Translations under genes and position numbers: made by a program | The notes under the pieces: model-generated | What the model was told of the DNA's origin: nothing | Database searches by the model: none | The model's input: only the letters and a program-made list of their open reading frames with translations | Shown: one piece after another, positions 7,711 to 57,318 of the stretch | Layout: every line of letters starts with the position of its first letter | Numbering within the stretch: position 1 is the first letter of the stretch | NCBI RefSeq assembly: GCF_002007605.1 | Contig: NZ_CP019799.1 | Span: 3,388,001-3,452,000 of the forward strand | From: Cellvibrio sp. PSBB023 | GTDB lineage: Bacteria; Pseudomonadota; Gammaproteobacteria; Pseudomonadales; Cellvibrionaceae | DNA length: 64,000 nucleotides | Direction of reading: 5' to 3'

Positions 7711-7801
7711 AATTAACTCCTTGAGCTTTAGTAGTAGTAACAATTTATTTCTTGTAAAAAATGTTTTTTGTAAATCCTGGTCTTAACGCTTTTATAAATA
7801 G

Positions 7802-37394: not shown

Positions 37395-37398
37395 CCAG
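37394..37398. repeat. Target-site duplication ACCAG, left copy
   Basis: ACCAG directly abuts the left terminal TGTCG. Its first A is the final base of the gyrB TAA stop codon. An identical copy abuts the right end. Confidence 0.9.
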
Positions 37399-37463
37399 TG
37401 TCGAATCTCATTCGGCGTGAACTTTTGTCTCATATACGTGATCCCTCGTCTCACTATTCGTGA
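37399..37463. repeat. Left transposon end with three TnsB-type sites
   Basis: Three direct copies of a motif close to TCTCAttnnnCGTGA: ATCTCATTCGGCGTGA at 37405, TCTCATATACGTGAT at 37428, GTCTCACTATTCGTGA at 37448, spaced about 20-23 bases. Terminal bases TGTCG. Confidence 0.85.
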
Positions 37464-37516
37464 ACTGAGGGATGCGTATAGAAAAGGAACAAATAATAAA
37501 AGTTGGAGGAGATGAA

Positions 37517-39781
37517 ATGGGTAAGCTTTACGTTAATGCTGCACCATTTTCACTAAGTGATGATCAGATTCTGTATCTCTATTGTGTAGAGTACAAAGAC
37601 CACGAAACCTTAAACTCTCTCCGAAATGAGTTGCGAGGCAAATACTTTGTCCGGCGAGCTGGGGATAAAGTTGAAATTGTTCCTTATATTTTCACTAATG
37701 AGGAAAACCAATTTGGGAATCCTATAGAAGTAAATTTATATGATAGATATGATTTGCTAGCAGCCTTAGCTGAGAACTGGATATTAAGGACATTCAAATC
37801 AAAAAAGGCCACTTGCTGGATATCTGGTGGTTACATTCATTACCTTTCTAAAAAATCAGGCTCAGACATTCTAGATAAATGTTTGAATGATAGATCAATC
37901 GTTCCCACATCTATTAGCTTACGATTTGGAGCCGAGTTTTCGATTCGAAAAATTCAGGTTAATGGAAAAATATCACCCTCAGTAATCGTAAATACTAGGA
38001 AAAGAATAATAATTAATGAGCCATTAATAAATTTTTTACAAATTGGCTTTGATCCGGTTGGTTTTTACATCTTAGAGAAAAATCATCCAGAAGAAAAAGG
38101 AAGACTCGTTGGTTGTGTTGAGAGAGTAGAAGGAGATATTCTTTTTTTAAAAGATAACGGAAATAATCCTGATACATTAAAAATCGATTTAGCCTACTTG
38201 GAACCAAGACAAGAAAACCTAGAAGCAATATTAAAATTGTATCTTGGTGATGAAAGTCTTGATGTATTAGAAAAGATAAAAAACATTTCTTCCGAAAAAT
38301 TCAGTGGGCCCACTAAGCTTGAAACAATAAATCAACTTTTTGCATTTCTCGAAAAACAAGAAAGAAACATCTGTCAGAATATACAAATCGTATTTGATAC
38401 TCCATTAAGTAATGAATATCAAGCTTCCATACAAAATGGGGAATTTACAAAACCTAATTTACTTTTTGATGTTTCTGGACGGAAAACAAGCACATGGAAT
38501 CAAGGTGGATTAGATAAGTATGGACCCTTTAATTGGGAGGGATTCCCTTACAGAAATATAAATATTGCCGTCATATGCCAAAGTGACAAACAAGGAGAAG
38601 TTGAACGGTTTATAAAACAACTTCTAGATGGAATTCCAGGAAGTACATATGCAGAATCCGGATTTTTAAAAAGATATCATTTCGATAAACCTTATTTTCG
38701 AGTGTTTCCTACAGAAAATAATAGCCCTCATGCATACAAGGTTGCGTGCGGTAAAGCTCTAGACCACATTACCGAACATGGCCGAAAATGGCACCTTTCT
38801 CTTATACAGATAGAGGAAAAATTCCATGAATTACAAGGTACAGATAATCCATATTTAGTAGTTAAAGCTTTCTTACTGTCAAAAGATATTCCAGTTCAGC
38901 AATTTGAATTTGAGACAATCATTCAAAATGGATTATCGCTAACAGCAAGTGTTAACAATATGGGAGTAGCCTGTTATGCAAAAATGGGAGGCACCCCTTG
39001 GATTCTTCCTGCTAAAAGCACTCTTTCCCATGAGCTGATTATTGGAATTGGCTCGTACATGTCATCAGAAGGAAGACTAGGAGATAAGAGACGCTATATT
39101 GGAGTTACAACAGTATTCAGTGGAGATGGAAGATATTTATTAGAATCACGTACAGCAGTAGTTGATTTTGATTCTTATCAGAAAGAATTAGCCTCAAATC
39201 TGATGAGAATAGTAAATGACATTAGACGAACAGAAGCATGGAGCGATAATGATCCTGTAAGATTTATTTTTCACATATTTAAGCCGCTAAAAAATAGTGA
39301 AATTGAGGCAGTAAAGCAATTAGTCGCCGAACTAGGGATGCCACATGCGGAATTTGCATTTTTACATATAGCAGATAGTCACCCATTCTATATTTTTGAT
39401 AAGTCTGAATTTGGTATTGGCAAACAAGTTAAAAAAGGTGTGTATGCGCCCTCGAGAGGCAGCTACATTAAACTTAATCCAATAGAAGCTCTAGTTTGCC
39501 TGACTGGTGCTAAAGAATTAAAACAAGTTAGTGATGGATTACCCACTCCGATTTTACTAAAACTTCACGAAAGCTCTTCATTTAGAGATTTAGATTATCT
39601 ATCAAGGCAAGTCTTTGAATTCTCTTGTTTGTCATGGCGAGGACTTCAACCGTCTCCTGTACCAATCACAATTTTATATTCAGATTTAGTAGCAAAGAAC
39701 ATAAATCAGTTATCGACAATACCAAGCTGGTCAACAGAAAATATCCTAGGCCCAATCGGACGGACTAGGTGGTTTCTATGA
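37517..39781 (+). CDS. Catalytically inactive prokaryotic Argonaute (long, MID-PIWI)
   Basis: 754 residues from ATG 37517 (MGKLYVNAAPFSLSDDQ), preceded by GGAGGAG; ATG 37472 is a weaker start. The C-terminal half carries Argonaute MID and PIWI features: a MID-like stretch (about 350-480; RNINIAVICQSDKQG, NPYLVVKAFLLSKDIP), YAKMGGTPWILP, HELIIGIGSYMSS, YIGVTTVFSGDGRYLLES, LSWRGLQPSPVPITILYS and the terminal RTRWFL. The first catalytic aspartate is replaced by Gly (IGIGS, about 511), and the usual third-aspartate region reads IFHIFKPLKNSE, so the slicer tetrad is broken. The N-terminal 330 residues should hold N, linker and PAZ-like parts, which I cannot delimit. Inactive long (long-B) Argonautes act as guide-directed sensors for a partner effector. 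The partner here is the overlapping nuclease gene. Confidence 0.87.
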   Translation: MGKLYVNAAPFSLSDDQILYLYCVEYKDHETLNSLRNELRGKYFVRRAGDKVEIVPYIFTNEENQFGNPIEVNLYDRYDLLAALAENWILRTFKSKKATCWISGGYIHYLSKKSGSDILDKCLNDRSIVPTSISLRFGAEFSIRKIQVNGKISPSVIVNTRKRIIINEPLINFLQIGFDPVGFYILEKNHPEEKGRLVGCVERVEGDILFLKDNGNNPDTLKIDLAYLEPRQENLEAILKLYLGDESLDVLEKIKNISSEKFSGPTKLETINQLFAFLEKQERNICQNIQIVFDTPLSNEYQASIQNGEFTKPNLLFDVSGRKTSTWNQGGLDKYGPFNWEGFPYRNINIAVICQSDKQGEVERFIKQLLDGIPGSTYAESGFLKRYHFDKPYFRVFPTENNSPHAYKVACGKALDHITEHGRKWHLSLIQIEEKFHELQGTDNPYLVVKAFLLSKDIPVQQFEFETIIQNGLSLTASVNNMGVACYAKMGGTPWILPAKSTLSHELIIGIGSYMSSEGRLGDKRRYIGVTTVFSGDGRYLLESRTAVVDFDSYQKELASNLMRIVNDIRRTEAWSDNDPVRFIFHIFKPLKNSEIEAVKQLVAELGMPHAEFAFLHIADSHPFYIFDKSEFGIGKQVKKGVYAPSRGSYIKLNPIEALVCLTGAKELKQVSDGLPTPILLKLHESSSFRDLDYLSRQVFEFSCLSWRGLQPSPVPITILYSDLVAKNINQLSTIPSWSTENILGPIGRTRWFL

Positions 39782-40908
39782 GCAATGATTTGCTTAATCT
39801 ACTAATGCAAAGACTTCATTCGACAATATCCGATGGAGCTAGCTTGGTATTATTATTCGCCGAGTGGTTCAACATCGATGTAGAAACTCCAACAGAAGAG
39901 GAACCTAGCAGCCTATGGCGATATCAGCTTGTTGCTGATGCAGCTATGAGAGGTGCATTAGGTAAATCGATAAACTATCAGTTTTCTGATGGGCTAACTT
40001 TTCTAAAACAAAAAGAGTATTTTGTTCCAAATAAAATACCAGGATTTGAAGCTGATCCCCTTGCAATATTAGCGGTAGCTATTGGCATCGAGAAAAGTGG
40101 ACTCGATACAAATGATGTAGATTGGCTAAATACAATAATCACTTGTGCGATTGATAAAGAACAGGATAAATGGAGACTTGACCTGTTGAAAGCAGCAAGG
40201 GTTATTCTAAAAATAGATGTTCAATCACTGAACAACGTAATTATTAGATGTGCATTGTCTTCGAAAGGTCTTTGTCAGATCGAAAAAGATGATCATAAAC
40301 TTGCCGAGGAGCAATGTTTAATCTTCGCAGATGCCTCTTCTGAAGATGCCTTATTTAGATATGCAGCTTTAAATACTCTAATTAAGGTGGAGGGACGAAT
40401 TAGATTTGGGAAAACGCAGATAGAAGATATATCAGAATTATTAAAAAATGTTGAGCCAGCCTTAAAACGATGGCCTTTTGAAGAAAAAGCAAAAACCAAA
40501 AATAGCACTATACAAAAATGGGATATTCAGAATGAATATCACGTTCAATCATATCTCTGGGCTTTGTTAAGACCTATATTTTCCGATTTGCAAGATGAGG
40601 AGTATCTTAAAAGCGTTGGATACAAGCATCCTAGAGTTGACTTAGCAATTGAATCACTAAAATTAGTAATAGAAGTAAAATATCTTCGTGAGTCAAATCA
40701 ATCTGCATTGGCTGATTTAGTAGAACAAATTGCAGCGGATGCTTCACTATATCTTTCATTAAATAACGAATCTTTTGACAAAATCATCGTATTCGTTTGG
40801 GACAACACTGGTTCAGTTCAACATCACAACAGTTTAATTCAAGGTATGAAACAAATTCGTGGAATTGTTGACGCTGTAGTTGTATCGAGACCTGGGAATT
40901 GGAAGTAA
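39778..40908 (+). CDS. Argonaute-associated PD-(D/E)XK nuclease
   Basis: 376 residues from ATG 39778, whose ATGA overlaps the Argonaute stop codon, indicating translational coupling; ATG 39769 is an alternative. The C-terminal third has a restriction-endonuclease-like core: VDLAIESLKLVIEVKYL (Asp near 287 and E-x-K near 300), followed by a helix with DLVEQIAADASLYL. The N-terminal 250 residues are alpha-helical and unassigned. Inactive long-B Argonautes are known to pair with such nucleases, which degrade DNA and cause abortive infection once the Argonaute detects invading nucleic acid; function here is inferred from that precedent and from the coupling. Confidence 0.83.
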   Translation: MSNDLLNLLMQRLHSTISDGASLVLLFAEWFNIDVETPTEEEPSSLWRYQLVADAAMRGALGKSINYQFSDGLTFLKQKEYFVPNKIPGFEADPLAILAVAIGIEKSGLDTNDVDWLNTIITCAIDKEQDKWRLDLLKAARVILKIDVQSLNNVIIRCALSSKGLCQIEKDDHKLAEEQCLIFADASSEDALFRYAALNTLIKVEGRIRFGKTQIEDISELLKNVEPALKRWPFEEKAKTKNSTIQKWDIQNEYHVQSYLWALLRPIFSDLQDEEYLKSVGYKHPRVDLAIESLKLVIEVKYLRESNQSALADLVEQIAADASLYLSLNNESFDKIIVFVWDNTGSVQHHNSLIQGMKQIRGIVDAVVVSRPGNWK

Positions 40909-40912
40909 TATT

Positions 40913-41407
40913 TTAAATATTTTGTAAAACAAAACGCGCCTGCAAAATTCTCAATAACTCAAAGCTGTTAATGTGTTGCACATTAAAGTCATTGCATATG
41001 TTGGGAATTTTTATTTTTTTACTATCAGGTGGATCGAGCCGTTCTTGGGTAACAACAATAGCACCAGACACGGCAGCTTTTGCGATTAACCAAGGATCTG
41101 CACCAGCTGAAAAATTAGCAACGTTCGCTTGGTTTTTATTGGGCAGCTCGTAAACATGTTGAATGATCTGAGCGTATTGCTGCTGTGTATTTGCATCAGT
41201 TACAGGGAGAAAATGATTTTGGCGCGATTTTACCCAAATGCTTAACTCGTCATTTTTTCCGGCAAGTTCATCATAAACCATTTGTATACTGGCTACTTGA
41301 CCTTGTGCAAATTGAAGATCTAACCAATCCCAGTAACCTGGACAAAAATCCATATCGTAATAGAAATTTTTCGCAGTGATATAGGTATTTGCATCCATTA
41401 AATACAT
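40913..41407 (-). CDS. DUF4411-type PIN-like protein (probable toxin)
   Basis: 164 residues. It begins MYLMDANTYITAKNFYYDMD, the first acidic residue of a PIN-like site, with further conserved acids in GADPWLIAKA and a strand AIVVTQER. PIN proteins are metal-dependent ribonucleases and many are toxins. It is translated right after the ImmA-type gene, overlapping by one base (TAATG), and this pairing is the standard DUF4411 antitoxin arrangement. It converges on the nuclease gene with a 4-base gap. Confidence 0.75.
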   Translation of the reverse strand: MYLMDANTYITAKNFYYDMDFCPGYWDWLDLQFAQGQVASIQMVYDELAGKNDELSIWVKSRQNHFLPVTDANTQQQYAQIIQHVYELPNKNQANVANFSAGADPWLIAKAAVSGAIVVTQERLDPPDSKKIKIPNICNDFNVQHINSFELLRILQARFVLQNI

Positions 41408-42552
41408 TAAATGCCTAACTCCGTAGCAAATCTTTGGATTTTGCTGGGCGCCATATCTAATAGCTTGCCCGCGTCTCTCAATAAAACCCGACCACTCAAT
41501 GTTTCAGAGACTAGTGCCTTTGCAAATCTCTCACTTACTTGGACTTTGTGAGTGCGATAATAAGTGGGGCCACCATCGGTGCGTTCGCGATCTCTATGAT
41601 CTCGCTGAACACTGTCTATATAATTTTGGTATTGTTGTTGGGTAATTTTCTGCAATGTTAATGCTCGGCGAGCTAACACCCACCTACTTACATGAAATAT
41701 AGCTTCTAATACTGGCAAGTTAAGTTGCCAGTCCGGTAGCGCTTGCCAATAAGTTAAAAACTCACCTGCCGGCACAAGAAATTCAGCTGCTATTGCGTTG
41801 CAAAGCACCTCTTCTGCTCTATTGGTATTGGGCTTTGCATCGGACACGCCACTTTGGCCAATCCAGATATGTGCGAGCTCATGAATAAGTGTAAATAACC
41901 TAGCGCTAGGGGCATCTGCTTGGTTTATAAAAATAATGGGCGCTAATGGATCAAAGAGTGCAAAACCTCGAAACTCTTTTACATTGAGAGGCTTGGTATA
42001 GTGGCCAAGGTCGCCTTGGCGCATAACCAGAATACCTATATCTTCTATTTTTTTGATGAGATCACGATAATAATCCTCCCAACTTCCTCGTTCTGGATGC
42101 GTTGGGATGTGGAGTACATTACGCATATCTGCAACTATCGCACTGGCAGGTTGCTGACTGGTAAATCGTCCCAAGTAGGGATTCCGGTCTAAACGTTGTT
42201 CTTGGCGCAAATAGTCTTTGTACCATTCCTGCCTTTCAATAATGGTATGCACCATTTTGATGAGCTCCGCACTGGGGCGAGGATTGTGCTCATTATCAAT
42301 GGTGCGCAGATCTGGAATAGGTAAATTTTCAACAGGCTGAATGTTTAAAAATAAATAGCCAAAAGGAATTAGTGTTTGCTTGGCGAAATCTTGAGCTTGT
42401 TTAAAAGTTACTCTGGCCTGCCCCAGTTCCCAAGCAATAAGCTTTTGTTCTTCTACTCTCAGCTTTTTAGCAAGCGCAGCCTCACTAAGCTGTGCTCTTT
42501 CACGAGCCCAACGGAGATTGGCGGGGTTAATCTGCGCATATGCAACAGCCAT
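41407..42552 (-). CDS. XRE-HTH plus ImmA/IrrE-type metallopeptidase (probable antitoxin)
   Basis: 381 residues. An N-terminal helix-turn-helix (about 10-65; WARERAQLSEAALAKKLRV) is followed by a zinc peptidase domain with HELAHIWIGQSG and a downstream conserved Glu region (EEVLCNAIAAEFLVP). ImmA/IrrE proteins degrade repressors or serve as antitoxins. It is upstream of the PIN-like gene on the same strand and overlaps it, so the pair is probably a toxin-antitoxin module that stabilises the element. Residues at the extreme C-terminus are basic. Confidence 0.82.
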   Translation of the reverse strand: MAVAYAQINPANLRWARERAQLSEAALAKKLRVEEQKLIAWELGQARVTFKQAQDFAKQTLIPFGYLFLNIQPVENLPIPDLRTIDNEHNPRPSAELIKMVHTIIERQEWYKDYLRQEQRLDRNPYLGRFTSQQPASAIVADMRNVLHIPTHPERGSWEDYYRDLIKKIEDIGILVMRQGDLGHYTKPLNVKEFRGFALFDPLAPIIFINQADAPSARLFTLIHELAHIWIGQSGVSDAKPNTNRAEEVLCNAIAAEFLVPAGEFLTYWQALPDWQLNLPVLEAIFHVSRWVLARRALTLQKITQQQYQNYIDSVQRDHRDRERTDGGPTYYRTHKVQVSERFAKALVSETLSGRVLLRDAGKLLDMAPSKIQRFATELGI

Positions 42553-42898
42553 TGTTACTTTTCCATTAAACAGTTTATATGTACATAGACATACGAAGCT
42601 TCATCTAGTTTTCCAGTATAGCTGGGCAGCATATTCGAGCTCAAAGAACTTCATTTTAATGTTTCAAAAATAATTAAAATGAAAACAAAACTCCCCTAGT
42701 AGTAACTCACTGAATTAAAAGCCAATTTTCAAAAAAATCATGGTAAAAATATAATCAAAAGCCCTATTTTTGATACATCAAAGTATAGTATTTTGATTGT
42801 AACTTACTGATTTGTATATATTTTTTTGAAAAACGATTGTTGCCAAAATAACAGCTTTACCCTAATCTGGACAGAAATATGTCCGATTGGTACTTCAG
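42553..42898. promoter_or_regulatory. AT-rich divergent promoter region with regulator palindrome
   Basis: About 346 bases between the divergent ImmA-type and XRE genes with no supported gene. It is strongly AT-rich (TATATATTTTTTT near 42818). A 16-bp inverted repeat GGACAGAAATATGTCC at 42869-42884 lies 15 bases before the XRE start codon, a typical autorepressor operator position. A TTTGATaCATCAAA-like element lies near 42770. Confidence 0.5.
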
Positions 42899-43297
42899 AT
42901 GACTCCCTTTGGCGAATACTTGGAACAACTTAGACGTAGCCGGTATCTGCAACAAAAGCAGTTGGCTGACATCATGGGAATTAACCCTTGCTATGTGAGT
43001 GCACTCGAAAAAGGCCGTAAAGGCCCACCCTCTAAACCAGTACTTGAACAACTTATTGAGAAACTGGATCTTTCTGCTGAGGAAGAGAGTCGTTTATGGA
43101 AAAGCGTAGAGCTCTCCGATTTAAATCTCCGCCTCCCGGTGAACATGTCTAAACAAGAATTTGAGTTCCTATACGAATTACGCCAAAGCCTTGGTAGGTT
43201 AAGTAATAACCAGTTGGTCATTATGCAAACGGCTTTAAAAATGGGGGAGTCGGCATTTGGAATGCAAGGAGAAAGAAGGAGGGGTAACGTCATGTAG
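42899..43297 (+). CDS. XRE-family transcriptional regulator of the transposon
   Basis: 132 residues from ATG 42899 (MTPFGEYLEQLRRSRYLQQ); TTG 42887 is possible but unlikely. The helix-turn-helix covers about 10-60 (LQQKQLADIMGINPCYVSALEKG). It is 168 bases upstream of tnsA on the same strand. Small XRE-type genes beside tnsA are frequent in Tn7-like elements and control transposition genes; that role is inferred. Confidence 0.82.
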   Translation: MTPFGEYLEQLRRSRYLQQKQLADIMGINPCYVSALEKGRKGPPSKPVLEQLIEKLDLSAEEESRLWKSVELSDLNLRLPVNMSKQEFEFLYELRQSLGRLSNNQLVIMQTALKMGESAFGMQGERRRGNVM

Positions 43298-43465
43298 AAA
43301 TAACAACGGGACGCACCGGATGGATTGTCCCGCTATTAGATGTAAGTGAAGTTACTTACGGCGTGGAAACCATAGTATCTACACCCTCGAATAGCCCGTC
43401 AACCCATCCCCTGCACAATTACCTGATCACAAATCAAACATTACCGTTCTGGGTAAGGGGTATTC

Positions 43466-44215
43466 ATGTCTTCAAAATCAACTTTGGTGCCATTTGGCAC
43501 TGGGGTGGGGGTAGCTTTGCGCTTACTTTCTACCCCCATTTCACCGAGCAGTCGTGTTAGGGAACCAGTTAAGCCTACCACCGGAAGAGTGGTTGGGTAC
43601 TTTCCATCAGTTAAAAACAACCGATCAATTGCTTGGGAGTCCCAACTTGAGCAGAAAGCTTGTTACGTATTTGAATTTTCCCCGGAAATAATTAAATACC
43701 GGGAACAACCTTTAAGTATCTACTACCGGCTGAATGGTGAGCTTTTGCGTTATACGCCCGATTTTGAGCTGACTCTACTTTCTGGGGAGTTGATATACGT
43801 CGAAGTGAAACCCGGAGCTAAGTTACAAACGCCGGAACTTCAGGAAAAACTGGGTGCGATTAGCCGGTATTGGAAAGAGAAAGGGCTACAGTTCCTGATT
43901 ATTACCGACCAAGAGCTTGATCATCCAATTCTCCAAAGCAATTTAAAACTCTTGCGTAGTTATTTGCGAGTCAAATGTGATGCTGAGCTTGTTCAAATTT
44001 CTGCTCATTGGCTTAAACAACAAAATAATCCAATCATCGGAGACTTGGCGGCTTACCTTAATTCGCTCAACAAGGTCTATTCATTACTTGCCCATCAATT
44101 TGTACTAACCAACCTTTACGAAAAAATTCAACACGAAAGTCAACTTTATCTCCAGGAGAAAAATCGCTATGAAAATCAGTTATTTTCACGCGGGTTTGCA
44201 ACTGACATTGAATGA
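43466..44215 (+). CDS. tnsA: Transposon endonuclease TnsA-like
   Basis: 249 residues. AAGGGG lies 5 bases before ATG 43466. The restriction-like core has E in AWESQLEQKACY, D in LLRYTPDFELTL and the E-x-K in LIYVEVKPG, the TnsA pattern that cuts the 5' ends of the element. With TnsB cutting the 3' ends it gives cut-and-paste transposition. A hairpin (CGGGAC/GTCCCG, 43306-43334) lies between the XRE gene and tnsA and may attenuate the operon. The 3' end overlaps tnsB by 47 bases. Confidence 0.9.
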   Translation: MSSKSTLVPFGTGVGVALRLLSTPISPSSRVREPVKPTTGRVVGYFPSVKNNRSIAWESQLEQKACYVFEFSPEIIKYREQPLSIYYRLNGELLRYTPDFELTLLSGELIYVEVKPGAKLQTPELQEKLGAISRYWKEKGLQFLIITDQELDHPILQSNLKLLRSYLRVKCDAELVQISAHWLKQQNNPIIGDLAAYLNSLNKVYSLLAHQFVLTNLYEKIQHESQLYLQEKNRYENQLFSRGFATDIE

Positions 44216-46106
44216 TGTGGCTTTTCGAATTGAGCGGATCTATGAATCTGGAGATTGCTTACTTGAACGAATGACCGATCACGCACTAGTACAGAGATCA
44301 AAATTTGAATTAATCAAACTTTTTGAAGAGGGGATGATTCGCTTCGAAGGAAATGAGGCCAATAGAGATAGAAATACAAACCGAAATTCAATTGATGTAG
44401 CTGGTCTTCCGGAATATCAACAAAAAATCGTAATTAGAAAAAGAGAATACATAATAGGAGCAGAGAAATTGCTTGGAAAAAAGCCCACAAAAATCAACAT
44501 TGAAATAGCAATTAATAGAGTAGCTGAGCTATTGAATGACAAAAATATACCCAGTGTATCGAGTGTATTTCGATGGTGGAAATCCTGGGTCAACTCAGGC
44601 AATAACATTCTCTGTTTACTAAATAAAAGACCTGGCTTATTTAAAACAAGAAGATTCAAAAAATCATCACAGATAATAAATGAGGTAATTCAGGAGTACT
44701 ATCTAACAAACCAAAGAACATCTGCTCAGGATGTATATGACCAGTTGTGCTTTCGATTTTCAGAAATTAACAAAGCAAGGTTGTTTCCTTTAAAAATTCC
44801 CAGCAGAGCAACTTTTTATCGAATGATAAAGGAAATTGACCCTTATGAATGTATGTCCGCACGACAAGGTAAAAGTATTGCCGACAGACATTTTCGCGCA
44901 GTAGGAGGGGGCGTTTCCACGAGCTATATCTTAGAAAGGGTAGAGGTTGACCATACACCACTGGATGTAATGGTTGTGAATGAAAAAACAGGTCTTCCTG
45001 ACGGTCGCCCATGGCTAACCGTTCTTTTAGATAGATATTCAAGAATGCCTCTTGGTATCGAAATAGGGTTCGAACCACCTTCCGAGCTGGCAGTTATGAA
45101 CGCGCTTAGAAATTCGATAAGACCCAAAACAGAAATCCTCAAAATATATCCAGATATTTTAAATGACTGGCCAGCCTACGGAATTCCAACAACATTGGTT
45201 TGTGATAATGGACGAGAATTCCATGCTACAAATCTTAAGAGAATGTGCGCTGAATTAAATATCGAAATACAGTTTTGTCCAAAGAAGCAGCCGAACTATA
45301 AAGGAGCTGTTGAGCGATTTTTAGGAACTCTTAATAGAGCCGTATGCCATCGACTGTCGGGTACAACATTCTCGAACATTCAGCAACGCAACGAATACGA
45401 CTCTGCTTCTTCAGCAAAGACAACGTTAGCTGAATTAAAGTCACTGATTCATGAATGGATCGTAGATATCTATTGCCATGAAATAAATCGAACTACTGGG
45501 AAGATGCCTTACGATCTTTGGAAGGAGGGCCTAGAAAAAAGAGAACCCTTGTTACCTGAGAGCATTCAGCAGTTAAATTTAATTCTCGCTAAAGAAATGC
45601 AGCGAAAGTTAAACCACGAAGGAGTGATAATTTTTGGAATAGCCTACAACTCCGCCGAACTAGGTGTGTTGAGACGGAGGTCGGACGAAACCTTTAACGT
45701 TAAGGTAAGAGTTGATCCATCTAACCTGGAATCAGTTTGGGTATATGACGATATTAATGGAGACTACATAGTAGTTCCGTCGATTTATCCTGAATACACA
45801 ACCGGCTTGTCTTTACTGGAGCATCGAGAGATCAGAAAAATTGATAGGAAAAATAATCAAAATGAGCAGGATGTATTGTCTCTATTAACCAAAAAAGCAA
45901 AGTTTACAGAAAAACTAAAAGATCTTAGTAAAAGTAAAAAGATACGACCAAGACAGAAAGCCGAGCGGCACACTTTACATAAACAAGATGCATCAGCTGA
46001 TAATAAAAGAAGATCAGAACTTACTAAACAGCAGGCTTTAAGTTTTACTGATCTGAATATTAGTGAAATACCTCGCTTTGATACAACCAAACGAGGTGAT
46101 TTCTAA
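44169..46106 (+). CDS. tnsB: DDE transposase TnsB-like
   Basis: 645 residues; AGGAG 9 bases before ATG 44169. RNase H-fold core with first Asp in VEVDHTPLDVMVV, second in LVCDNGREFHA and Glu in YKGAVERFLGTLN, the D-D-E of the Mu/TnsB family. An N-terminal DNA-binding region (about 1-230) and a C-terminal basic tail (about 590-645) that would contact TnsC are visible. It binds the terminal repeats and joins the 3' ends to target. It overlaps tnsA by 47 bases, and its stop overlaps the tnsC start by 1 base. Confidence 0.93.
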   Translation: MKISYFHAGLQLTLNDVAFRIERIYESGDCLLERMTDHALVQRSKFELIKLFEEGMIRFEGNEANRDRNTNRNSIDVAGLPEYQQKIVIRKREYIIGAEKLLGKKPTKINIEIAINRVAELLNDKNIPSVSSVFRWWKSWVNSGNNILCLLNKRPGLFKTRRFKKSSQIINEVIQEYYLTNQRTSAQDVYDQLCFRFSEINKARLFPLKIPSRATFYRMIKEIDPYECMSARQGKSIADRHFRAVGGGVSTSYILERVEVDHTPLDVMVVNEKTGLPDGRPWLTVLLDRYSRMPLGIEIGFEPPSELAVMNALRNSIRPKTEILKIYPDILNDWPAYGIPTTLVCDNGREFHATNLKRMCAELNIEIQFCPKKQPNYKGAVERFLGTLNRAVCHRLSGTTFSNIQQRNEYDSASSAKTTLAELKSLIHEWIVDIYCHEINRTTGKMPYDLWKEGLEKREPLLPESIQQLNLILAKEMQRKLNHEGVIIFGIAYNSAELGVLRRRSDETFNVKVRVDPSNLESVWVYDDINGDYIVVPSIYPEYTTGLSLLEHREIRKIDRKNNQNEQDVLSLLTKKAKFTEKLKDLSKSKKIRPRQKAERHTLHKQDASADNKRRSELTKQQALSFTDLNISEIPRFDTTKRGDF

Positions 46107-47065
46107 TGATATTGTCAAGTGAAAAAATGGAGCAGGTGGCTGACCTAAAAAAGATGATTATCAATCATCCGCAATTCGACAAGGCTTATGAGCAGCTACT
46201 AAATGCCTATTATATGAATGTCGAAACAGGAATTTCTGAACATATTATCTGTGTCGGTCAATCAGGAACCGGAAAATCTACGCTTAAGGAAAAACTAAGA
46301 GATAGCATCAATCCTCAAAAAAATAATCAAAAAGTCATAACACCAATTTTAATTGTAGACACACCGGCGATGCCAACGGTGAAAAACCTTGCAGAAGAGA
46401 TGTTAATGAAACTGGGTGATTTCAGATACTACTCTGGATCAACCATACAGAAAACAACCAGAGTTCATCATTATTTAAACCAGTGTGAAGTAAAAATGAT
46501 CATCTTTGATGAGCTCCAGCATTTTATTGATAGGGGAAAAGAGCGCAAGTCGCAAGAAGTGGCTGATTGGTTAAAGACAGTTATTGATCAATCCAGGTGC
46601 TCCATTGTGTTAATGGGTCTTGAGAGGTGTGAGTATCTGTTCAGAATCAACGAGCAACTAAGAAGACGCTTCAGCAAGCGAATAGATCTTCATCCTTTTT
46701 CGATAGATAGCCATGAACCATTCATGGAATTTATGGGCGTCTTGTATGCAATTCTTGAGAGATCAAAATTAACAGCGAGATTTGATCTGAATAACAAGGA
46801 GTTCATCTCAGCAATCTATTACGCAACGGATGGTGTGATAGCCAACATGATAAAACTTTTTATTGGTGTAATTGAGCTGCTTGATGCATCGAAAAACAAG
46901 ATGATTGGAAAAGACATATTTGAAACTGCGTTCATGGAAAACATATGGATCGATGGTAAGAGAGAGCTGAATCCTTTCAACAATGCGTTTATTTGGCAAC
47001 GATTAAATAAACCTGGAATGCCATTTCACCGTAACGATTTTATTAAGGAAGAAAAACAAGCATGA
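46106..47065 (+). CDS. tnsC: AAA+ ATPase TnsC/TniB-like
   Basis: 319 residues. Walker A CVGQSGTGKSTLKEKL near residue 50, Walker B KMIIFDELQHFID near 130, and sensor-like residues in IVLMGLERCEYLF. TnsC forms ATP-bound filaments that link TniQ-type target selectors to TnsB and give target immunity. It is shorter than Tn7 TnsC (about 550) and resembles TniB-size proteins. Its stop overlaps the tniQ start (ATGA). Confidence 0.9.
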   Translation: MILSSEKMEQVADLKKMIINHPQFDKAYEQLLNAYYMNVETGISEHIICVGQSGTGKSTLKEKLRDSINPQKNNQKVITPILIVDTPAMPTVKNLAEEMLMKLGDFRYYSGSTIQKTTRVHHYLNQCEVKMIIFDELQHFIDRGKERKSQEVADWLKTVIDQSRCSIVLMGLERCEYLFRINEQLRRRFSKRIDLHPFSIDSHEPFMEFMGVLYAILERSKLTARFDLNNKEFISAIYYATDGVIANMIKLFIGVIELLDASKNKMIGKDIFETAFMENIWIDGKRELNPFNNAFIWQRLNKPGMPFHRNDFIKEEKQA

Positions 47066-48870
47066 AAAAAAGCACGATAATGAAGCCGTTAATACATCCT
47101 CCTTGCCTCCCAGATGAATTTCCCACCGGTTACTTGATTAGGCTGGCTGATATTAATAAGTATCAGAATATTTTCTGGTTAATAGATGCTGATTCTTTTG
47201 AAAAGCGTATAAAAAACGTTATGTATTACCATGAAATGTTACAGCTATCTGATTGGGCAGGTTACGAGAATAATAAGTTTATTAATTTCTCCAATTTACA
47301 TTCGAAGTACTTCGATATGCAACATATGCGCTTTTGCCCTCTGTGTATAAAGAATTCCCCTTATATAAGAATTGGTTGGCAATTGAGGCCATCTTATGTT
47401 TGTAGGACGCATAAAATTTGGTTAAGAGATAGCTGTTCAAAATGCAAAAGTCGGGTAACACTTGTATATCCAAGATTAACAGATTGCAGATGTGGCCACC
47501 CGCTTTCAGACCAAGAACTTCTTAAGGCTTCTGCTGACATGATTCAGCTTCAAGAGTTTATTGACGGTGATCATGCCATGAATAAAGAACTTGATATCGA
47601 TTTAACAAAAAGATTGGATTTGATTATATTTTTTAACCGATGGCTTCGTATTAGAGGTCAGTTCAAGTCGTTAGAAAATAGCAAAGATGCTCGAGATACG
47701 CTAGGTGACGCGGCTGAAGCTATATTTGGAGGAAAACTCGGATTTTTTAATTTCTTGAATAGACTTCAAGCAGAAGATTTAAGGGGAGCTAGCTTAACCA
47801 GTTTTAGATATGAGTTGTATGAGCGCTTTCCAGGTAATGAGTTCTCCTGCTATAGATCCCTTATGGAAGAATACATCAACCAAAACTGGGAGCGACCATT
47901 AACCAGAAGAAATATCCATTTTAGTCGGAAGACATTGCATGAACATCCGTGGATTGCGTTTGCAGTAGCGTGCAGAGAATATGACATATCCAAAACCATG
48001 CTACGTAAGGCATTTTTAAACGGTTATGTAAGATTTAAAAAGGAAACAAAAAATAAGCGAACATTGACCTATCTGTATAGACAAGACATTAGCGATAGAT
48101 ATTTAAGGATTAAAGATATAATTACGTTAAAGGAGGCAAGACTGGTGCTTGGACTTAGTAAGGAAAATTTCACGGCACTGGTGAATAAAAAGTTATTTAA
48201 AACGGCAATTTCTCCCTCTGAAAGTGGATTTGGAAGCTGGTGTTTTTCGCTTGAAGAAATGTATAGTTTTAGGGATCAGCTTACCAGGGCGGTACACAGT
48301 ACCCCCGGAGCAAGCTGGTCATTTTCTGAAGTTATGCAGTACTTTAGTGGAAGATTAGATGATTTCCTAATCAGACTAACAGATTCTGTTAAAGATCGTA
48401 GCCTCAGAGTTTCATCTATAGATTCTGATAAGAATGGATATTCCTCGCTGCATTTTTTGAAAGATGATTTTTTGGTCTGGCTGGAATTCAACAAGAAAAA
48501 CGAAGAATTAATTAGCGTTCCTGTGCTTGCAAAAATACTGGGCGTTCAACAGCAATTTACTTATGAGCTAGTGAACCGGGAGATTATAAATTCAAGCAAA
48601 TGTATTGATAGCAAGAACGCTTGCATAAGTCATTCGCAGCTTTCCGAATTCAATAATAAATATGTAATCTTGTCCAAGTTAAGTAAAGCTGTGGATATTA
48701 ATTCACGAACATTAATTAGCTACCTTGCTTCAAGGAAAATAATACCTGTCTATGATGACACAGAAAAACCACTGAGGCAGAAAGTCTATTTGAAAGAGAA
48801 GCTAAGGAATATTTGTATTCTTTCTTCTTATCTAGATAGGGTGACTGATGGTAAGGAGAATCCTGATTGA
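47062..48870 (+). CDS. tniQ: Target-selection protein TniQ/TnsD-like
   Basis: 602 residues. The N-terminal TniQ domain starts PPCLPDEFPTGYLIRLADIN, and the zinc ribbon shows CPLCIKN, then CRTH, CSKCKS and CRCGHPL. The rest (about 200-602) is a long, repeated helical region with several helix-turn-helix-like stretches, as in TnsD proteins that bind a fixed chromosomal site. With no tnsE or CRISPR genes in the element, this is the obvious candidate for recognising gyrB. It overlaps tnsC by 4 bases. A diverged copy of the last 45 residues lies near the right end of the element. Confidence 0.88.
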   Translation: MKKSTIMKPLIHPPCLPDEFPTGYLIRLADINKYQNIFWLIDADSFEKRIKNVMYYHEMLQLSDWAGYENNKFINFSNLHSKYFDMQHMRFCPLCIKNSPYIRIGWQLRPSYVCRTHKIWLRDSCSKCKSRVTLVYPRLTDCRCGHPLSDQELLKASADMIQLQEFIDGDHAMNKELDIDLTKRLDLIIFFNRWLRIRGQFKSLENSKDARDTLGDAAEAIFGGKLGFFNFLNRLQAEDLRGASLTSFRYELYERFPGNEFSCYRSLMEEYINQNWERPLTRRNIHFSRKTLHEHPWIAFAVACREYDISKTMLRKAFLNGYVRFKKETKNKRTLTYLYRQDISDRYLRIKDIITLKEARLVLGLSKENFTALVNKKLFKTAISPSESGFGSWCFSLEEMYSFRDQLTRAVHSTPGASWSFSEVMQYFSGRLDDFLIRLTDSVKDRSLRVSSIDSDKNGYSSLHFLKDDFLVWLEFNKKNEELISVPVLAKILGVQQQFTYELVNREIINSSKCIDSKNACISHSQLSEFNNKYVILSKLSKAVDINSRTLISYLASRKIIPVYDDTEKPLRQKVYLKEKLRNICILSSYLDRVTDGKENPD

Positions 48871-49191
48871 GGATCTATTGAGTTCTGATGTGAAAAAAGC
48901 TATTGTTCGTTTGCCTCAGTTTTTAGAGCTGGGGGAATACTACAGGATGTCAAGCAATATAATGATGTCAATATGACATGTTATCTTGAATGACAGGGCG
49001 ACCGGTAAGGGCAGCATACAGTTGTTCTCCACGACGCTACACATAGTATATGTGATTGTTAACACACGCGGCTCGCACCAGAATATCGGTGTCAGATGGT
49101 GCTTTGAATGCACTTGGTTATGCCGGTAGGGGCAAATTGAGATGGCCGCAATCTCTTGCCCCTACCGGTTTGGCTAATCAGGGATTTACAA
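48871..49191 (+). ncRNA. Structured leader of the reverse-transcriptase gene, possible ncRNA
   Basis: About 320 bases with no supported gene between tniQ and the RT. It contains a strong hairpin: CCGGTAGGGGCAA (49123-49135) pairs perfectly with TTGCCCCTACCGG (49156-49168), extended by GAGAT/ATCTC past a three-base bulge; loop GGCCGCA. A smaller stem GCACCA/TGGTGC spans 49075-49102. The motif CCGGTAAGGGCA at 49002 repeats as CCGGTAGGGGCA at 49123. Antiviral RTs of the DRT2 and retron types have a structured RNA just upstream. Boundaries are unknown. Confidence 0.45.
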
Positions 49192-49884
49192 ATGAGTTCA
49201 GAGGATTGGTACCGAAAAAGAAACTACCTGCATTTTGATAGGCCCATTTCAGAAAAGTCTGCAGAAAAAATCGTCACGAATCCAAAAGCTGTATCTGTCC
49301 ATTCTTTTTATCCATTGATAAGCTATTCGATTAGCGTTACAAAAATATATAAAGATGAGAGTGATCGGATAGGGAAAAAAGTTAAGGATCGGCCTATCTC
49401 GTATGCTGCTCATATTGATTCGCATATATATTCTTTCTACTGTCATTTATTAACTCCTCTCTATGAAGATCTATTGCATAAATACGGTCTTGAAGACAAT
49501 ATTTTGGCCTTTCGTAAATTAGGAAAAAATAATATTGATTTTGCTTTCGATGCATTCAAAGAGATTAAATCATTAGGAGAGAAGTACAGTGGGTGTACAG
49601 CGATAGGTTTAGATATAACAGGTTTTTTTGATAATCTTGACCACGAATTATTAAAGCATTCTTGGCAGCAGTTAATAAATAAAAATGTTCTACCTGATGA
49701 TCATTTTGCGGTTTTTAGATCGCTTACTAAGTTTTCTAAAGTAGATCGTTCTTCATTATATAAGTTATTGGATATCTCCGAGCACAATCCAAAAAATGAT
49801 CGTTTTAGAGTTTGTTCACCAGCTGAATTTAGAAATTTGGTGAGAGCAAATAAATTAATAGTGTTGTTTTGCACCCAAAACTGA
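49192..49884 (+). pseudogene. Truncated antiviral-type reverse transcriptase (DRT2-like)
   Basis: ATG 49192 starts MSSEDWYRKRNYLHFDRP, with AGGGA upstream. About 223 residues of RT remain, including the first-aspartate motif AIGLDITGFFDNLDHELL; the palm motif with the catalytic YADD-like residues is missing because an IS21-family end begins at 49862 and supplies the last seven codons to TGA 49882-49884. The family call rests on the N-terminal WYRKR region, the HIYSFYCHLL stretch and the single-gene organisation, which resemble stand-alone defence RTs, not group II introns. No continuation is found after the IS elements, so the enzyme must be inactive. Confidence 0.72.
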
Positions 49885-49974
49885 CCCACTAAACCCCCAT
49901 ATTTGCGTCGAAAATTGACCCACGTAAACCGACTATCCTGCTTGTTTTTTGAGCGGGAGATAGGAGTGATTAAC

Positions 49975-51507
49975 GTGGCTATGTTAAGCAAGATCAGACG
50001 TTGGTATTTCCGCGACAAACTCTCGCTACGGGAGATTGCCCGACGTACCGGATTTTCCCGCAACACCGTTCGCCGCTACCTGCGCAATGAGATCAGCGAA
50101 CCGGTTTATCCCAAACGACAAACACCCAGTAAGCTCGATGCTTTTGCCGATAAGTTACGGCAGTGGTTAGCCGATGCGGCGCGTACCTCCCGTAAACAAC
50201 GCCGCTCGCTCAAACAGATGCATGCTGATTTACGTGCGCTGGGCTATGAAGGCTCCTATGATCGCGTTGCTGTCTTTGCGCGCGAGTGGCGTCGCCAGCA
50301 ATTGGAATTGAACAAGGGTGCGAGCAAACACACCTACATTCCCTTGCAGTTCAAACCGGGTGAAGCATTCCAGTTTGATTGGAGTGAAGACTGGGCCGTG
50401 ATTGCCGGTGAGCGCGTCAAGCTGCAAGTTGCCCATTTCAAATTGAGTTACAGCCGCGCCTTCTTTGTCCGCGCTTATTTGCTGCAAACCCATGAGATGT
50501 TGTTCGATGCGCACCATCATGCCTTTATGGCGTGGGGCGGCATTCCGCAACGCGGGATCTACGACAACATGAAGACCGCTGTCGATAAAGTGAAACGCGG
50601 CAAGCAGCGCGATGTGAATGCGCGTTTTGCCGCAATGGTCAGCCATTACTTATTTGATGCAGAGTTCTGCAATCCCGCTGCGGGTTGGGAGAAAGGACAG
50701 GTCGAGAAGAACGTGCAGGATGCACGAAGAAGGCTCTGGCAACAGGTGCCAGCACAACCCTCATTGATTGCGCTGAATGACTGGTTGCACGAGCGCTGCG
50801 TTCAACTCTGGAGTGAATCCACCCATCCCACTGAAGCATTAACCATTCAAGCGGCATTGGAGCATGAGCGTTCTTTCCTGATGTCTGTGGGGCAACCCTT
50901 CGATGGTTTTGTCGAGCAGCCCAAGCGCGTATCGCCCACCTGTTTAATCACCTTCGAGCGTACTCGCTACAGTGTGCCATCTTCGTTTGCTAATCGACCG
51001 GTGAGTTTGCATATCTACCACGATCACCTGGAGGTGATTGCTGAAGGCAATATCATTGCCGTGCATACCCGCGTGTTTAACCGTAAGCATGAGCAGGTAA
51101 TGACCGTGTATGACTGGCGGCATTACCTCTCGGTGTTGCAACGCAAGCCTGGTGCAATTCGCAACGGCGCGCCCTTTGCCGAATTACCTCAAGCCTTTCA
51201 ATCGCTGCAAACCATTTTGTTAAAGCGCGTTGGCGGTGATCGGGAGATGGTGGATATTCTTGCGCTGGTTTTACTACACGATGAGCAGGATGTTCTCACT
51301 GCCGTTGAGCTTGCCTTGGAAACCGGCTCACCCTCCAAGCAAATCGTCATCAACATTCTGAGTCGATTACTGGAAGGATCGCCTATCGCACCGATTGAAG
51401 TCCCACCCGCATTAACACTGCGCATTGAACCGCTCGCCAACGTCAATCGTTACGACAAACTGCGTGCACAAACCATCGGCACACAAGGAGGCCAGCATGC
51501 ACACTAA
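49975..51507 (+). CDS. istA: IS21-family transposase IstA
   Basis: 510 residues from GTG 49975 (AGGAG 8 bases upstream; ATG 49981 is the alternative). N-terminal helix-turn-helix [21 protein letters not shown] and an integrase core with [12 protein letters not shown], a middle-Asp region [13 protein letters not shown] and the Glu motif [11 protein letters not shown]. It overlaps istB by 11 bases. Confidence 0.93.
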
Positions 51508-52285
51508 TCCCATGATCCCTGTGCTCAAATCATTAAAGCTTTACGGCATGGCACATGCGTTAAGCGATCTTGCCGAACAGGATTCACCGGCATTCCAGGC
51601 GAGCACCGGCATCCTTGATCATTTACTCAAAGCCGAACTGGCCGAGCGCGAAGTGCGCTCGGTAGCCTACCAACTGAAGACCGCCAAATTCCCTGCGTAT
51701 CGTGATCTGAGTGGCTTTGATTTTATGAGTAGCATGGCCAATGAAGTGCTGATCCGGCAATTGTGTGCCGGTGACTTTATGGATAGCGCACAGAATGTCG
51801 TGTTTGTCGGTGGCCCCGGTACAGGCAAAACCCACCTTGCCAGTGCCATCGGCATTCAAGCGATTGAACACTTGCATCGTCGCGTTCGCTTCTTCTCAAC
51901 GATTGAATTGGTAAATGCACTGGAGAAGGAAAAGCAGCAGGGCAAAGCCGGACAAATTGCATCACGTCTAATGCATACCGATTTAGTGATTCTGGATGAG
52001 ATGGGCTATTTACCCTTCAGTCAAACCGGTGGTGCCTTGTTGTTTCACTTGATGAGCAAGTTGTATGAACGCACCAGCATGATCATCACCACCAACCTCA
52101 GCTTTGCGGAATGGTCGAATGTATTTGGTGATGCAAAGATGACTACAGCGTTATTGGATCGCGTCACCCATCACTGCCATATTGTTGAAACCGGCAATGA
52201 CAGCTATCGATTCAAAGAGAGTTCAAACCCACCGAAAAGGGAGAAAAAGACGACAACTTATCCACAACCCAAACCCGTAAAATAA
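51497..52285 (+). CDS. istB: IS21-family helper ATPase IstB
   Basis: 262 residues from ATG 51497 ([18 protein letters not shown]), with AGGAGG 5 bases upstream. Walker [17 protein letters not shown], Walker [13 protein letters not shown]. It is a AAA+ partner that controls target choice by IstA. The complete, apparently intact pair suggests recent activity. Confidence 0.93.
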
Positions 52286-52330
52286 ACCATCCAGGGTGGG
52301 TCAAAATTCAACGCAAAAGGTGGGTCAGTT

Positions 52331-52711
52331 TTAAACGCAAATCAACATTCTCACGTAAGTAATGTCACTAACCCACGAAACATTGGGCGCGTCAGGACTA
52401 AAGTTCCGGTTCAACAAGTTGGCGGCCACCTTGGCGGTTTTGCTTCCTTTGATGTAACGCCGTTTATAGCCAATCTGTGCTTTTATCCGGTATTTCCGCA
52501 TAATTTTAGCTACACGATGCACACTGCATGTCTCACCCGATTCACGCAAATCCTTGTGTATCCACGGACTACCGTAAGTACCACCACTTGCTAAATAGTG
52601 CTCTTTAATTAACGCCAGTAACCGCTGATCTTCTTGCTCGCGTTTTGATGCTGGATTTTTTAGCCACGCGTAGTAGCCACTGGGATGAAGCTTTAAAACA
52701 TGGCACATCAA
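52331..52711 (-). pseudogene. IS3-family transposase OrfB, 3'-truncated
   Basis: The visible frame reads from MMCHVLKLHPSGYYAWL to SWVSDITYVR and then runs into IS21 DNA. Normal expression would be by -1 frameshift from orfA at the slippery A6G run (52789-52795), which gives a fused start reading IKYAFIRAHIKVHSV. Two of the catalytic acids are lost, so it is inactive. The first DDE Asp is present in SWVSDITYV. Confidence 0.82.
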
Positions 52712-53079
52712 GCGTACCGAATGTACCTTGATGTGGGCGCGAATAAAGGCGTACTTTATTCGTGCTCCCTTGCAAAGTACGCGGCGGCCTTTTTTAAAAT
52801 GTCGCGCTCCTCGGTAACTCGCCTGAGCTCTGCTTTAAGGCGGGCAATTTCGGCTTGTTCATCTACTTGAGCGGCTATGCGGGGTTGGGGTTCGTTGTAT
52901 TTCTTTAGCCAGGCATAGAGGCTATGGGTGGTGGTCCCGAGCCGTTCAGCCACTTCCGCAACAGAATACCCCCGCTCGATAATCTGCTTGATAGCTTCTT
53001 TCTTGAATTCTTCAGTAAATCGTTTGCCTGACATAGACACCTCATCTTGGAGTTAGATTATGAGGCTTTTGGGTGTCTA
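52348..53079 (-). mobile_element. IS3-family element remnant cut by the IS21 insertion
   Basis: orfA is complete and orfB ends after ITYVR where the IS21 end begins, so roughly the last two-thirds of the DDE domain is missing. The outer (orfA-side) terminus is taken as the TAGACACCC on the minus strand at about 53079; this is approximate. Confidence 0.75.
52756..53040 (-). CDS. IS3-family OrfA
   Basis: 94 residues. The helix-turn-helix region RFTEEFKKEAIKQIIERGYS and a leucine-zipper-like C-terminus (LKAELRRVTEERDILKKA) ending in FAREHE are IS3 OrfA hallmarks. A slippery heptamer for -1 frameshifting to orfB lies at the ILKK codons. Confidence 0.9.
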   Translation of the reverse strand: MSMSGKRFTEEFKKEAIKQIIERGYSVAEVAERLGTTTHSLYAWLKKYNEPQPRIAAQVDEQAEIARLKAELRRVTEERDILKKAAAYFAREHE

Positions 53080-53493
53080 GTGAAATCTGGGAAGTCCATT
53101 GTGAGGGATTTTAGCTACCCAGCGCTCGGAGCCATGAAGGCTCGTATTATAGTGCACCAGAGGAAAGCAGAAGGAGAGGAACTTCCAGTCGAGCTTATAA
53201 AAGAAGCAAATGAACTCAACGTTGTCCTTTCGGAGAGAGAAAATTATTCATTTGAGCCTCAACCAGAGCCATTTACGTTATCTCAAATGAAACAATGGTA
53301 TTCAAGGGATATAAAAATTAGCTCTAACGGTGTCCTAAACGTAAAAGAAAATATGTTGCGCACACAGACCTTTATGACTGCTTCAATGAAATCCCTGATA
53401 GGCAAACCCGCTTATATTGATAAGCTCATATCTTGCAAAGTCTTAACGCCAGAAGCTCGGAAACTTGCCGACCCAACTTACGATGAACTGTAA
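53080..53493 (+). pseudogene. 3' fragment of an unknown gene truncated by the IS3 element
   Basis: About 137 residues in frame, with the first residues after the IS3 end reading SGKSIVRDFSYPALGAMKA and ending TPEARKLADPTYDEL. Upstream codons fall in IS3 DNA, so the 5' end is lost. I do not recognise the family. It is likely a remnant of the cargo gene that received the IS3 insertion; it does not continue the reverse transcriptase, because no RT motif is seen. Confidence 0.55.
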
Positions 53494-53526
53494 TCCACGT
53501 TTCAAGAGCCCCGGTACCATTTAAAC

Positions 53527-53556
53527 AAAAATACCACCATTTGGTGGTATTTTTGC
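53527..53556 (+). terminator. Terminator between the gene fragment and the secreted-protein gene
   Basis: AAAATACCACCA/TGGTGGTATTTTTG, a perfect short hairpin with A- and T-runs on both sides; works in either direction and separates convergent genes. Confidence 0.8.
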
Positions 53557-53703
53557 GACAAGCCAGTAGAGATACTCTAGCCCGTAACGTAATCATAGCT
53601 AATATTCCCAGCACCCCACTCTAACCATTTACCGGTTAACCTGTTGAGTAAGCGCGGTGAGAACATTATACGCACTCAGCACCAAGCAAACCACGATGCT
53701 GAA

Positions 53704-55110: not shown

Positions 55111-55130
55111 TTAGATCCTCCTAGATTGAT

Positions 55131-56201: not shown

Positions 56202-56220
56202 CTTCTGTTCTGGTCGTAGA

Positions 56221-56322
56221 TCAAATTAGCAATTTTAATTCTATTGCCGCACCAGAATGGAGTGGCGCAAAAAGCTGCGTAGCAATAATGATTGCAAATA
56301 ACAGGTTTTTCAAAATTCGCAT
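56221..56322 (-). CDS. 33-residue signal-peptide-like small protein
   Basis: MRILKNLLFAIIIATQLF followed by APLHSGAAIELKLLI, with GGAAGGTGG 4 bases before the start. The sequence is a positively charged start, a hydrophobic core and an AXA-like end, so it may be a small exported or membrane peptide, or a leftover leader. It lies 20 bases upstream of the protease. Confidence 0.4.
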   Translation of the reverse strand: MRILKNLLFAIIIATQLFAPLHSGAAIELKLLI

Positions 56323-57039: not shown

Positions 57040-57110
57040 AGTAGCTGTCTTTAAGGCAGCTACTAATCAGTTTTACACTCTTAATCTAACTTATTGATTT
57101 TAATAAAAAA

Positions 57111-57241
57111 TCACGAAAAGTGAGATTTTCTTGAATAAATATCAAGATAAATGAGATTTCGATGTGCCTGGAAAATCTCATAATTCATGGAACCCCTTGA
57201 TTTTGTTGGGCTCGGAAAATCACACCAAATGAGATACGACA
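57111..57241. repeat. Right transposon end with four TnsB-type sites
   Basis: Inverted copies at 57111 (TCACGAAAAGTGAGAT), 57141 (weaker, ATCAAGATAAATGAGAT) and 57220 (TCACACCAAATGAGAT), plus one in the opposite orientation at 57174 (AATCTCATAATTCATGGA). It ends TACGACA. Tn7 also has unequal site numbers at its two ends. Confidence 0.83.
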
Positions 57242-57246
57242 ACCAG
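57242..57246. repeat. Target-site duplication ACCAG, right copy
   Basis: ACCAG directly follows the right terminal CGACA. Host sequence resumes with ATCTAATAG and the probable gyrB terminator. Confidence 0.9.
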
Positions 57247-57273: not shown

Positions 57274-57318
57274 AAAAGCCACAACATCAATTGATGATGT
57301 TGTGGCTTTTTGTTTTTT
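57274..57318 (+). terminator. Probable gyrB terminator displaced by the transposon
   Basis: AAAAGCCACAACATCA, loop ATTGA, TGATGTTGTGGCTTTT, then TGTTTTTT. A 16-bp perfect stem with T-run, 28 bases after the right target duplication and so originally about 30 bases after gyrB. Confidence 0.88.

Follow-up and report, generated by a model that had tools for sequence, protein, structure and literature searches.

An inactive long-B Argonaute operon, probably of the BPAN type, on a Tn7-like transposon behind gyrB in Cellvibrio

In prokaryotic Argonautes (pAgos) of the long-B type, the PIWI domain lacks the catalytic tetrad (PMC6299218; statements about cited papers refer, here and below, to the available parts of their texts). 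The closest described system of this type is EcBPAN, composed of EcAgo and the nuclease EcbAgaN, in which RNA-guided recognition of single-stranded DNA (ssDNA) leads to collateral DNase activity and abortive infection (Song et al. 2023, PMC10620215). The present work concerns a two-gene operon of Cellvibrio sp. PSBB023, in which a gene for a long-B-type Argonaute is followed by that for a bAgaN nuclease. The operon lies in the window, i.e., the whole 64-kb stretch of DNA analysed, taken from a 4.7-Mb single-contig genome. It is very probably an abortive-infection operon of the BPAN type whose carrier is a Tn7-like transposon homing to gyrB. The locus thus joins a known kind; what goes further is the helical module of the nuclease, proposed here to be swappable, and the gyrB-homing carrier.

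The Argonaute and its nuclease partner

Both open reading frames were found where the original prediction had placed them (Table 1), downstream of four genes that we take, from their translations, to be dnaA-dnaN-recF-gyrB. The start codon of the Argonaute gene at 37517 has a GGAGG seven bases ahead (37505-37509), and an alternative in-frame ATG is present at 37472, 45 bases further upstream. The same ambiguity exists for EcAgo, for which the shorter form was judged to be right (Song et al. 2023, PMC10620215). Piwi was the only Pfam match of the protein above the cut-off (E 3e-13). The PADLOC model pAgo_II covers residues 6-754 with 762 bits, and among PDB sequences EcAgo matches best (entry 23wq, residues 6-754, E 3.9e-115). 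ProtArgonAgoRhdb of NCBIfam scored 355 bits, which is under its cut-off of 700. No match of the Argonaute was found in the phage records searched. The AlphaFold2 model built from 24 sequences (predicted local distance difference test, pLDDT, 87.1; predicted template-modelling score, pTM, 0.86) is RsAgo-like over its full length, with a TM score of 0.88 and 26% identity in the structural alignment (PDB 6d8a, 5awh). Because the model superposes on RsAgo, its N-terminal half is modelled as the usual N-linker-PAZ* lobe.

The first catalytic aspartate is replaced by glycine in the motif IGIGS, as originally predicted; the corresponding motif is IGLDMG in L138, an active-like long pAgo from a class survey in which five of the 369 genomes were Piwi-positive. 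Glycine occupies this position in 23 of the 24 aligned relatives, and through this replacement the PIWI domain is without the DEDX tetrad. The last catalytic aspartate is retained (YSDL vs HADR of L138), and the position of the glutamate is not resolved by the alignment. The region of the third aspartate, also called altered in the original prediction, does differ (FHIFK vs LHRDG of L138); loss of the residue itself is likely rather than strict, since the alignment is gapped in this stretch. The 5'-phosphate pocket of the YK type, Y446-K450-Q461-K489, is invariant in all 24 sequences and has the same spacing as Y463-K467-Q478-K506 of RsAgo (PMC6299218). Given the intact pocket and the lost catalytic aspartate, the Argonaute should bind 5'-phosphorylated guides, as EcAgo does, without cutting.

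The stop codon of the Argonaute gene overlaps the nuclease start in the ATGA at 39778-39781, the coupling named in the original prediction. The nuclease matches the DpnII-MboI restriction endonuclease (REase) family of Pfam (E 2.6e-49) and the PADLOC model Aga_Helical-REase (338 bits), and its REase half matches EcbAgaN (PDB 23wq, E 4.1e-34). All 43 aligned relatives share the residues of its D-x10-EVK core (D288, E299 and K301). The organisation read from the letters, an inactive long-B Argonaute with a PD-(D/E)XK nuclease, is thus upheld by sequence, fold and operon structure.

An earlier scan with the single Argonaute sequence gave 26 pattern matches and no relative; an alignment-based scan of one genome per species then gave 281 relatives. 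Partners were counted in the best 80 of the 281; because these resemble the query most closely, the proportion with an REase partner is inflated. In 70 of these 80 loci an REase partner begins no more than 300 bases from the Argonaute stop; L005, where a weaker REase half is followed by a nucleoside-phosphorylase-like (PNP) domain, is counted among them. In eight loci a helical-module partner is recognised by PADLOC without an REase match. Four of these are SEFIR/TIR partners (L027, L031, L068, L080); one, L061, is the only patatin partner among the 80, its last residues being hydrophobic by eye; and three have no recognised killing domain (L025, L034, L060), with a weak helix-turn-helix in L034. 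As for the remaining two loci, no recognisable partner was found in L076, and in L056 the partner runs off the contig. The original prediction had left the N-terminal parts of both proteins unassigned and had therefore allowed for a new subtype. This was rejected: both N-terminal halves are of the usual kind, and the architecture is standard by PADLOC, by the REase partners of the relatives and by the RsAgo fold.

Partners were also read by eye in six loci of a viral collection, three of them being REase, two L025/L060-like and one a membrane protein. On a contig of this collection, L145, the product of 7283-8170 behind a long-B-type Argonaute is a small membrane protein whose N-terminus may be a distant helical module. 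A pair like that of the window, with the two genes overlapping by four bases, lies on a plasmid of Methylococcus sp. EFPC2 (NZ_CP070493.1, L149, 925-4352); its Argonaute is 39% and its nuclease 41% identical to those of the window.

A quick tree was made for 81 Argonautes, with long branches flagged and without RsAgo and EcAgo. The window's Argonaute joins P0001 (89% identical), then P0003, then L002 with P0005, with values of 99-100 in the SH-like approximate likelihood ratio test (SH-aLRT). Among these four, only L002 has an examined partner, an REase. The SEFIR rows group in a clade of their own (100), and a second clade unites the non-REase rows (94). For the long-B placement the sole long-A-like outgroup row is L138, which sits on a very long branch.

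The helical module across effectors

The N-terminal parts of the partners were compared on their own with hhalign, and 32 column-shuffled and five reversed-profile comparisons served as controls. The module profile matched the partners without a recognised effector with E 2.8e-40, the SEFIR partners with 1e-27, the PNP-fused L005 with 1.8e-21 and the patatin partner with 3e-17; the best control values were 0.09 in the shuffles and 0.027 with the reversed profile. A natural exchange of effectors is seen between L061 (8325-10289) and L071 (5046-6314), whose Argonautes are 79% identical and whose partners are 60% identical over residues 1-236. Beyond residue 236 the partner is an REase in L071 and a patatin in L061. 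A homolog search with a mixed alignment returned 32 proteins (proteins only, without their neighbourhood), 29 of the SEFIR type and three of the REase type, one of the latter representing 234 clustered E. coli sequences. When 398 genomes of the phylum were scanned, the module profile gave at least two matches, the window's own and G819, this being a lower bound since six candidates at most were scored per genome. In G819, too, the module begins at the stop codon of a long-B-type Argonaute gene.

Since the module is kept with related Argonautes while the effector changes, it is probably the part that couples the partner to the Argonaute and passes on the target signal, the C-terminal effector being exchangeable. 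This suggests a role for a domain common to nearly all partners examined and makes a direct prediction, namely that the Argonaute acts on the helical module and not on the nuclease.

Several observations weigh against such a role. The link of the module profile to the EcbAgaN-like set is weaker (E 3.7e-10), and a BLAST-like search against EcbAgaN found the REase half alone in common. The weak pairs were EcbAgaN-like vs SEFIR (7.5e-4, or 8e-7 after adding sequences), EcbAgaN-like vs patatin (0.0017 over 41 columns), EcbAgaN-like vs L005 (0.63) and patatin vs L005 (0.068). For the transmembrane partners of the BPAM kind (L145 and its relatives, 43 rows), the best value against the module was 0.0016, the lowest of 40 shuffles being 0.018, and the other profile pairs ranged from 0.007 to 0.56; a link to these partners is not established. 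Furthermore, EcbAgaN was not pulled down by EcAgo (PMC10620215), and any contact through the module must therefore be transient or target-dependent.

The relation of SEFIR and REase partners may be known to the makers of PADLOC, because its Helical-REase models also score the SEFIR partners. No statement on the sharing of the module among effectors was found in the available texts, supplements aside, of Song et al. (2023) or of Ryazansky et al. (2018). At the level of titles and abstracts, no description was found of long-B loci armed with SEFIR, TIR or patatin, nor of modular helical effectors; the SEFIR- and patatin-armed loci of the long-B type are highlighted here.

The carrier element and the gyrB 3' end

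The operon is part of an element of 19,843 bp (37399-57241) flanked by the target-site duplication (TSD) ACCAG. Tn7-like transposons produce a 5-bp target duplication, and this element has, besides such a duplication, TnsA, TnsB, TnsC and TniQ/TnsD genes and arrays of TnsB-site-like repeats at both ends (Table 1). On its own the 15-mer repeat is no rarity in the window: 14 of 100 shuffles gave as many matches. The original prediction of Tn7-like carriage adjacent to gyrB is borne out by the tns genes, the element ends and the duplication, the left terminus lying four bases past the gyrB stop.

Table 1. Positions of the operon, its carrier element and the flanking terminator in the window
Feature	Position	Strand	Evidence or remark
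Left TSD ACCAG, its first A ending the gyrB stop codon	37394..37398	.	exact copy at 57242-57246
Left end, terminus TGTCG, TnsB-site-like repeats at about 37406-37420, 37428-37442, 37449-37463	37399..37463	+	first two repeats by eye
Argonaute, predicted catalytically inactive, long-B-type, 754 aa	37517..39781	+	Pfam, PADLOC, PDB match, AlphaFold2, alignment, tree
bAgaN nuclease, 376 aa	39778..40908	+	ATGA overlap, Pfam, PADLOC, PDB match
Helical module, bAgaN N-terminus, residues 1-210	39778..40407	+	common to partners with other effectors
PD-(D/E)XK domain, DpnII-MboI-like, residues 214-374, D288/E299/K301	40417..40899	+	
tnsA	43466..44215	+	Tn7_TnsA-like_N 1.1e-14
tnsB	44169..46106	+	Pfam, PADLOC
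tnsC, TniB-type ATPase	46106..47065	+	Pfam
TniQ/TnsD-like, 602 aa, presumed reader of the gyrB 3' end	47062..48870	+	Pfam, PADLOC
Right end, inverted TnsB-site-like repeats, terminus CGACA	57107..57241	-	
Right TSD ACCAG	57242..57246	.	
Intrinsic terminator, 16-bp stem, -23.4 kcal/mol	57274..57310	+	

Nineteen other gyrB loci were inspected: 17 of the same genus, the truncated L126, and G142 of another genus of the same family. No element end was found directly behind gyrB in the 17 same-genus loci, which carry the gyrB 3' end. In G142, 13 bases past gyrB, the sequence TGTCGAATCTCATT is nearly the same end as the left end in the window. The G142 element (L107 with L106) is 14.3 kb long, ends in TTCGACA, has an exact GTTGT TSD and carries HEPN and GmrSD-like genes as cargo. 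Compared with those of the window, its TnsB fragments show 33-47% identity and its TniQ 24%. Since such divergent elements share their termini and their site, 4 and 13 bases from gyrB, the gyrB 3' end looks like an attachment site read by TniQ; this site rests on two insertions, those of G142 and of the window's genome (G000). A further element end lies directly beyond the G142 element, which suggests tandem insertion behind gyrB in that genome. A related trace in the window is the C-terminal remnant of a TniQ gene (56777-56977, 63% identical to the intact TniQ), which adjoins the right end and suggests a composite of two gyrB-homing elements.

In a TniQ search of 144 genomes of the family (E 0.001), 19 matched, and besides G000 only G142 had a near-full-length match. 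Among the 369 genomes of the class (E 1e-15), only G250 was found besides G000, and the 36 kb surrounding its element gave no gyrB match at E 1e-6. The end pattern with two mismatches was found in six of the 144 family genomes, and a reversed control pattern in two. Four single matches of this kind (G014, G085, G103, G115) were discounted as probable chance hits, their surroundings unchecked, so that G000 and G142 are the accepted cases. In the class scan with this pattern there was one match with one mismatch besides G000, in G432. No report of gyrB as a Tn7-like site was found among the papers that literature searches brought up, including the available part of PMC12452197. The words "gyr" and "Argonaute" are absent from the main text of Benler et al. 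2021 (PMC8649781), and the accessible part of Faure et al. 2023 (PMC10293859) mentions neither gyrB, gyrase nor Argonaute. If gyrB is an attachment site of Tn7-like elements, it would usefully flag where defence cargo can be sought.

Because the insertion separates gyrB from a strong terminator, read-through from gyrB into the Argonaute operon is possible. The terminator on the far side of the element (Table 1) is perhaps the original gyrB terminator, pushed there by the insertion. In 12 of the 17 same-genus loci, the first 80 bases past the gyrB stop hold a hairpin of -12.7 kcal/mol or lower followed by T's. When the right flank of the window was shuffled, the minimum was -15.3 and the median -5.6, and the milder hairpins of the 12 loci fall within that range. 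Read-through is disfavoured by two points: five of the 17 loci are without a strong terminator behind gyrB, and the left end holds one terminator-like site (37398-37418; 0.1 in shuffles), with a weak fold of -7.5. That no promoter-like site was found in the gyrB-Argonaute interval says little, with 0.6 expected.

Other genes are present in the same transposon. On the minus strand, 40913-42552 comprise a DUF4411 gene, its product presumably PIN-like, with an upstream gene of the HTH-ImmA/IrrE type, probably a toxin-antitoxin pair. At 49156-49884 only the N-terminal part of a DRT2-like reverse transcriptase is left (PADLOC Drt2, 327 bits), the gene being truncated by an IS21-family element that has its terminal repeats (about 49862-52347). 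Pieces of an IS3-type transposase were read by eye beside this element (52331-53040, minus strand).

Proposed mode of action and comparison with known systems

By analogy with EcBPAN, the inactive Argonaute would load short 5'-phosphorylated RNA guides derived from cellular RNA and bind complementary ssDNA of an invader, most likely a replicating multicopy plasmid. The target-bound Argonaute may then switch on the nuclease by acting on its helical module. The activated nuclease would, as in EcBPAN, degrade DNA collaterally and without sequence choice, so that the cell is killed or stalled. Part of the operon's transcription may start at the gyrB promoter. For the window's pair we infer the type of guide, the type of target and the collateral DNase activity from the described system. 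EcBPAN is triggered by the CloDF13 plasmid origin (Song et al. 2023, PMC10620215) and gave no protection against the phages T5, T7 and lambda-vir (PMC10620215). For the natural target of the window's pair, plasmids are therefore the better guess.

The pair could be a degraded or silent passenger of the transposon rather than a working defence. The element is partly decaying, as seen from the interrupted DRT2 fragment and the TniQ remnant, and the low G+C content (0.356 vs 0.502 for dnaA-gyrB) fits a foreign origin. However, this explanation is made improbable by the two open frames, by the intact nuclease active site and MID pocket and by the preserved ATGA overlap. Slightly less credible still is a service of the Argonaute and nuclease to the transposon instead of the host, in target immunity or in the control of rival elements or plasmids. 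The position of the pair between the transposon end and tnsA and the second element end behind G142 gyrB would agree with it, but none of the 80 related loci has window-like TnsA, TnsB, TnsC or TniQ at E 1e-6 (in flanks of 6 kb at most, less where a contig ends), and a related pair is carried by the Methylococcus plasmid, so that such pairs do not need an element of this kind.

More weight, though still as the unlikely case, is due to the view that the helical N-terminus is only a scaffold for dimerisation or folding, with no part in Argonaute coupling. The module nevertheless stays with closely related Argonautes when patatin replaces the effector, and its only other match in the 398-genome scan is again directly behind a long-B-type Argonaute. 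The coupling role is consistent with a wider proposal, which we hold to be somewhat better than an even guess: long-B immunity may be modular, with a single helical coupling domain, which the target-loaded Argonaute reads, placed before interchangeable killers (DNase, SEFIR/TIR, membrane-anchored patatin phospholipase and others). The window's operon would be one case, mobilised by a gyrB-homing Tn7-like family and maybe under gyrB read-through. In this respect the module would resemble the CARF and CD-NTase sensors, which are coupled to varied effectors.

Among described proteins, RsAgo has the closest fold to the window's Argonaute and the same spacing of the MID pocket. The carrier shares with the described Tn7-like transposons the TnsA-TnsB-TnsC-TniQ/TnsD set, the TnsB-site arrays, defence cargo and safe-site integration (Benler et al. 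2021, PMC8649781). Unlike Tn7 proper, which inserts behind glmS, it is found behind gyrB. With EcBPAN the operon has in common the gene order, the inactive long-B Argonaute and the two-domain bAgaN with a D-x10-EVK REase, the spacing of D298/E309/K311 in EcbAgaN being the same (PMC10620215). It differs in that EcbAgaN-like partners stand mostly elsewhere in the tree, from which EcAgo itself is absent, that the N-terminal half of its nuclease aligns with the EcbAgaN-like set by profile only, and that the pair is carried by a transposon behind gyrB.

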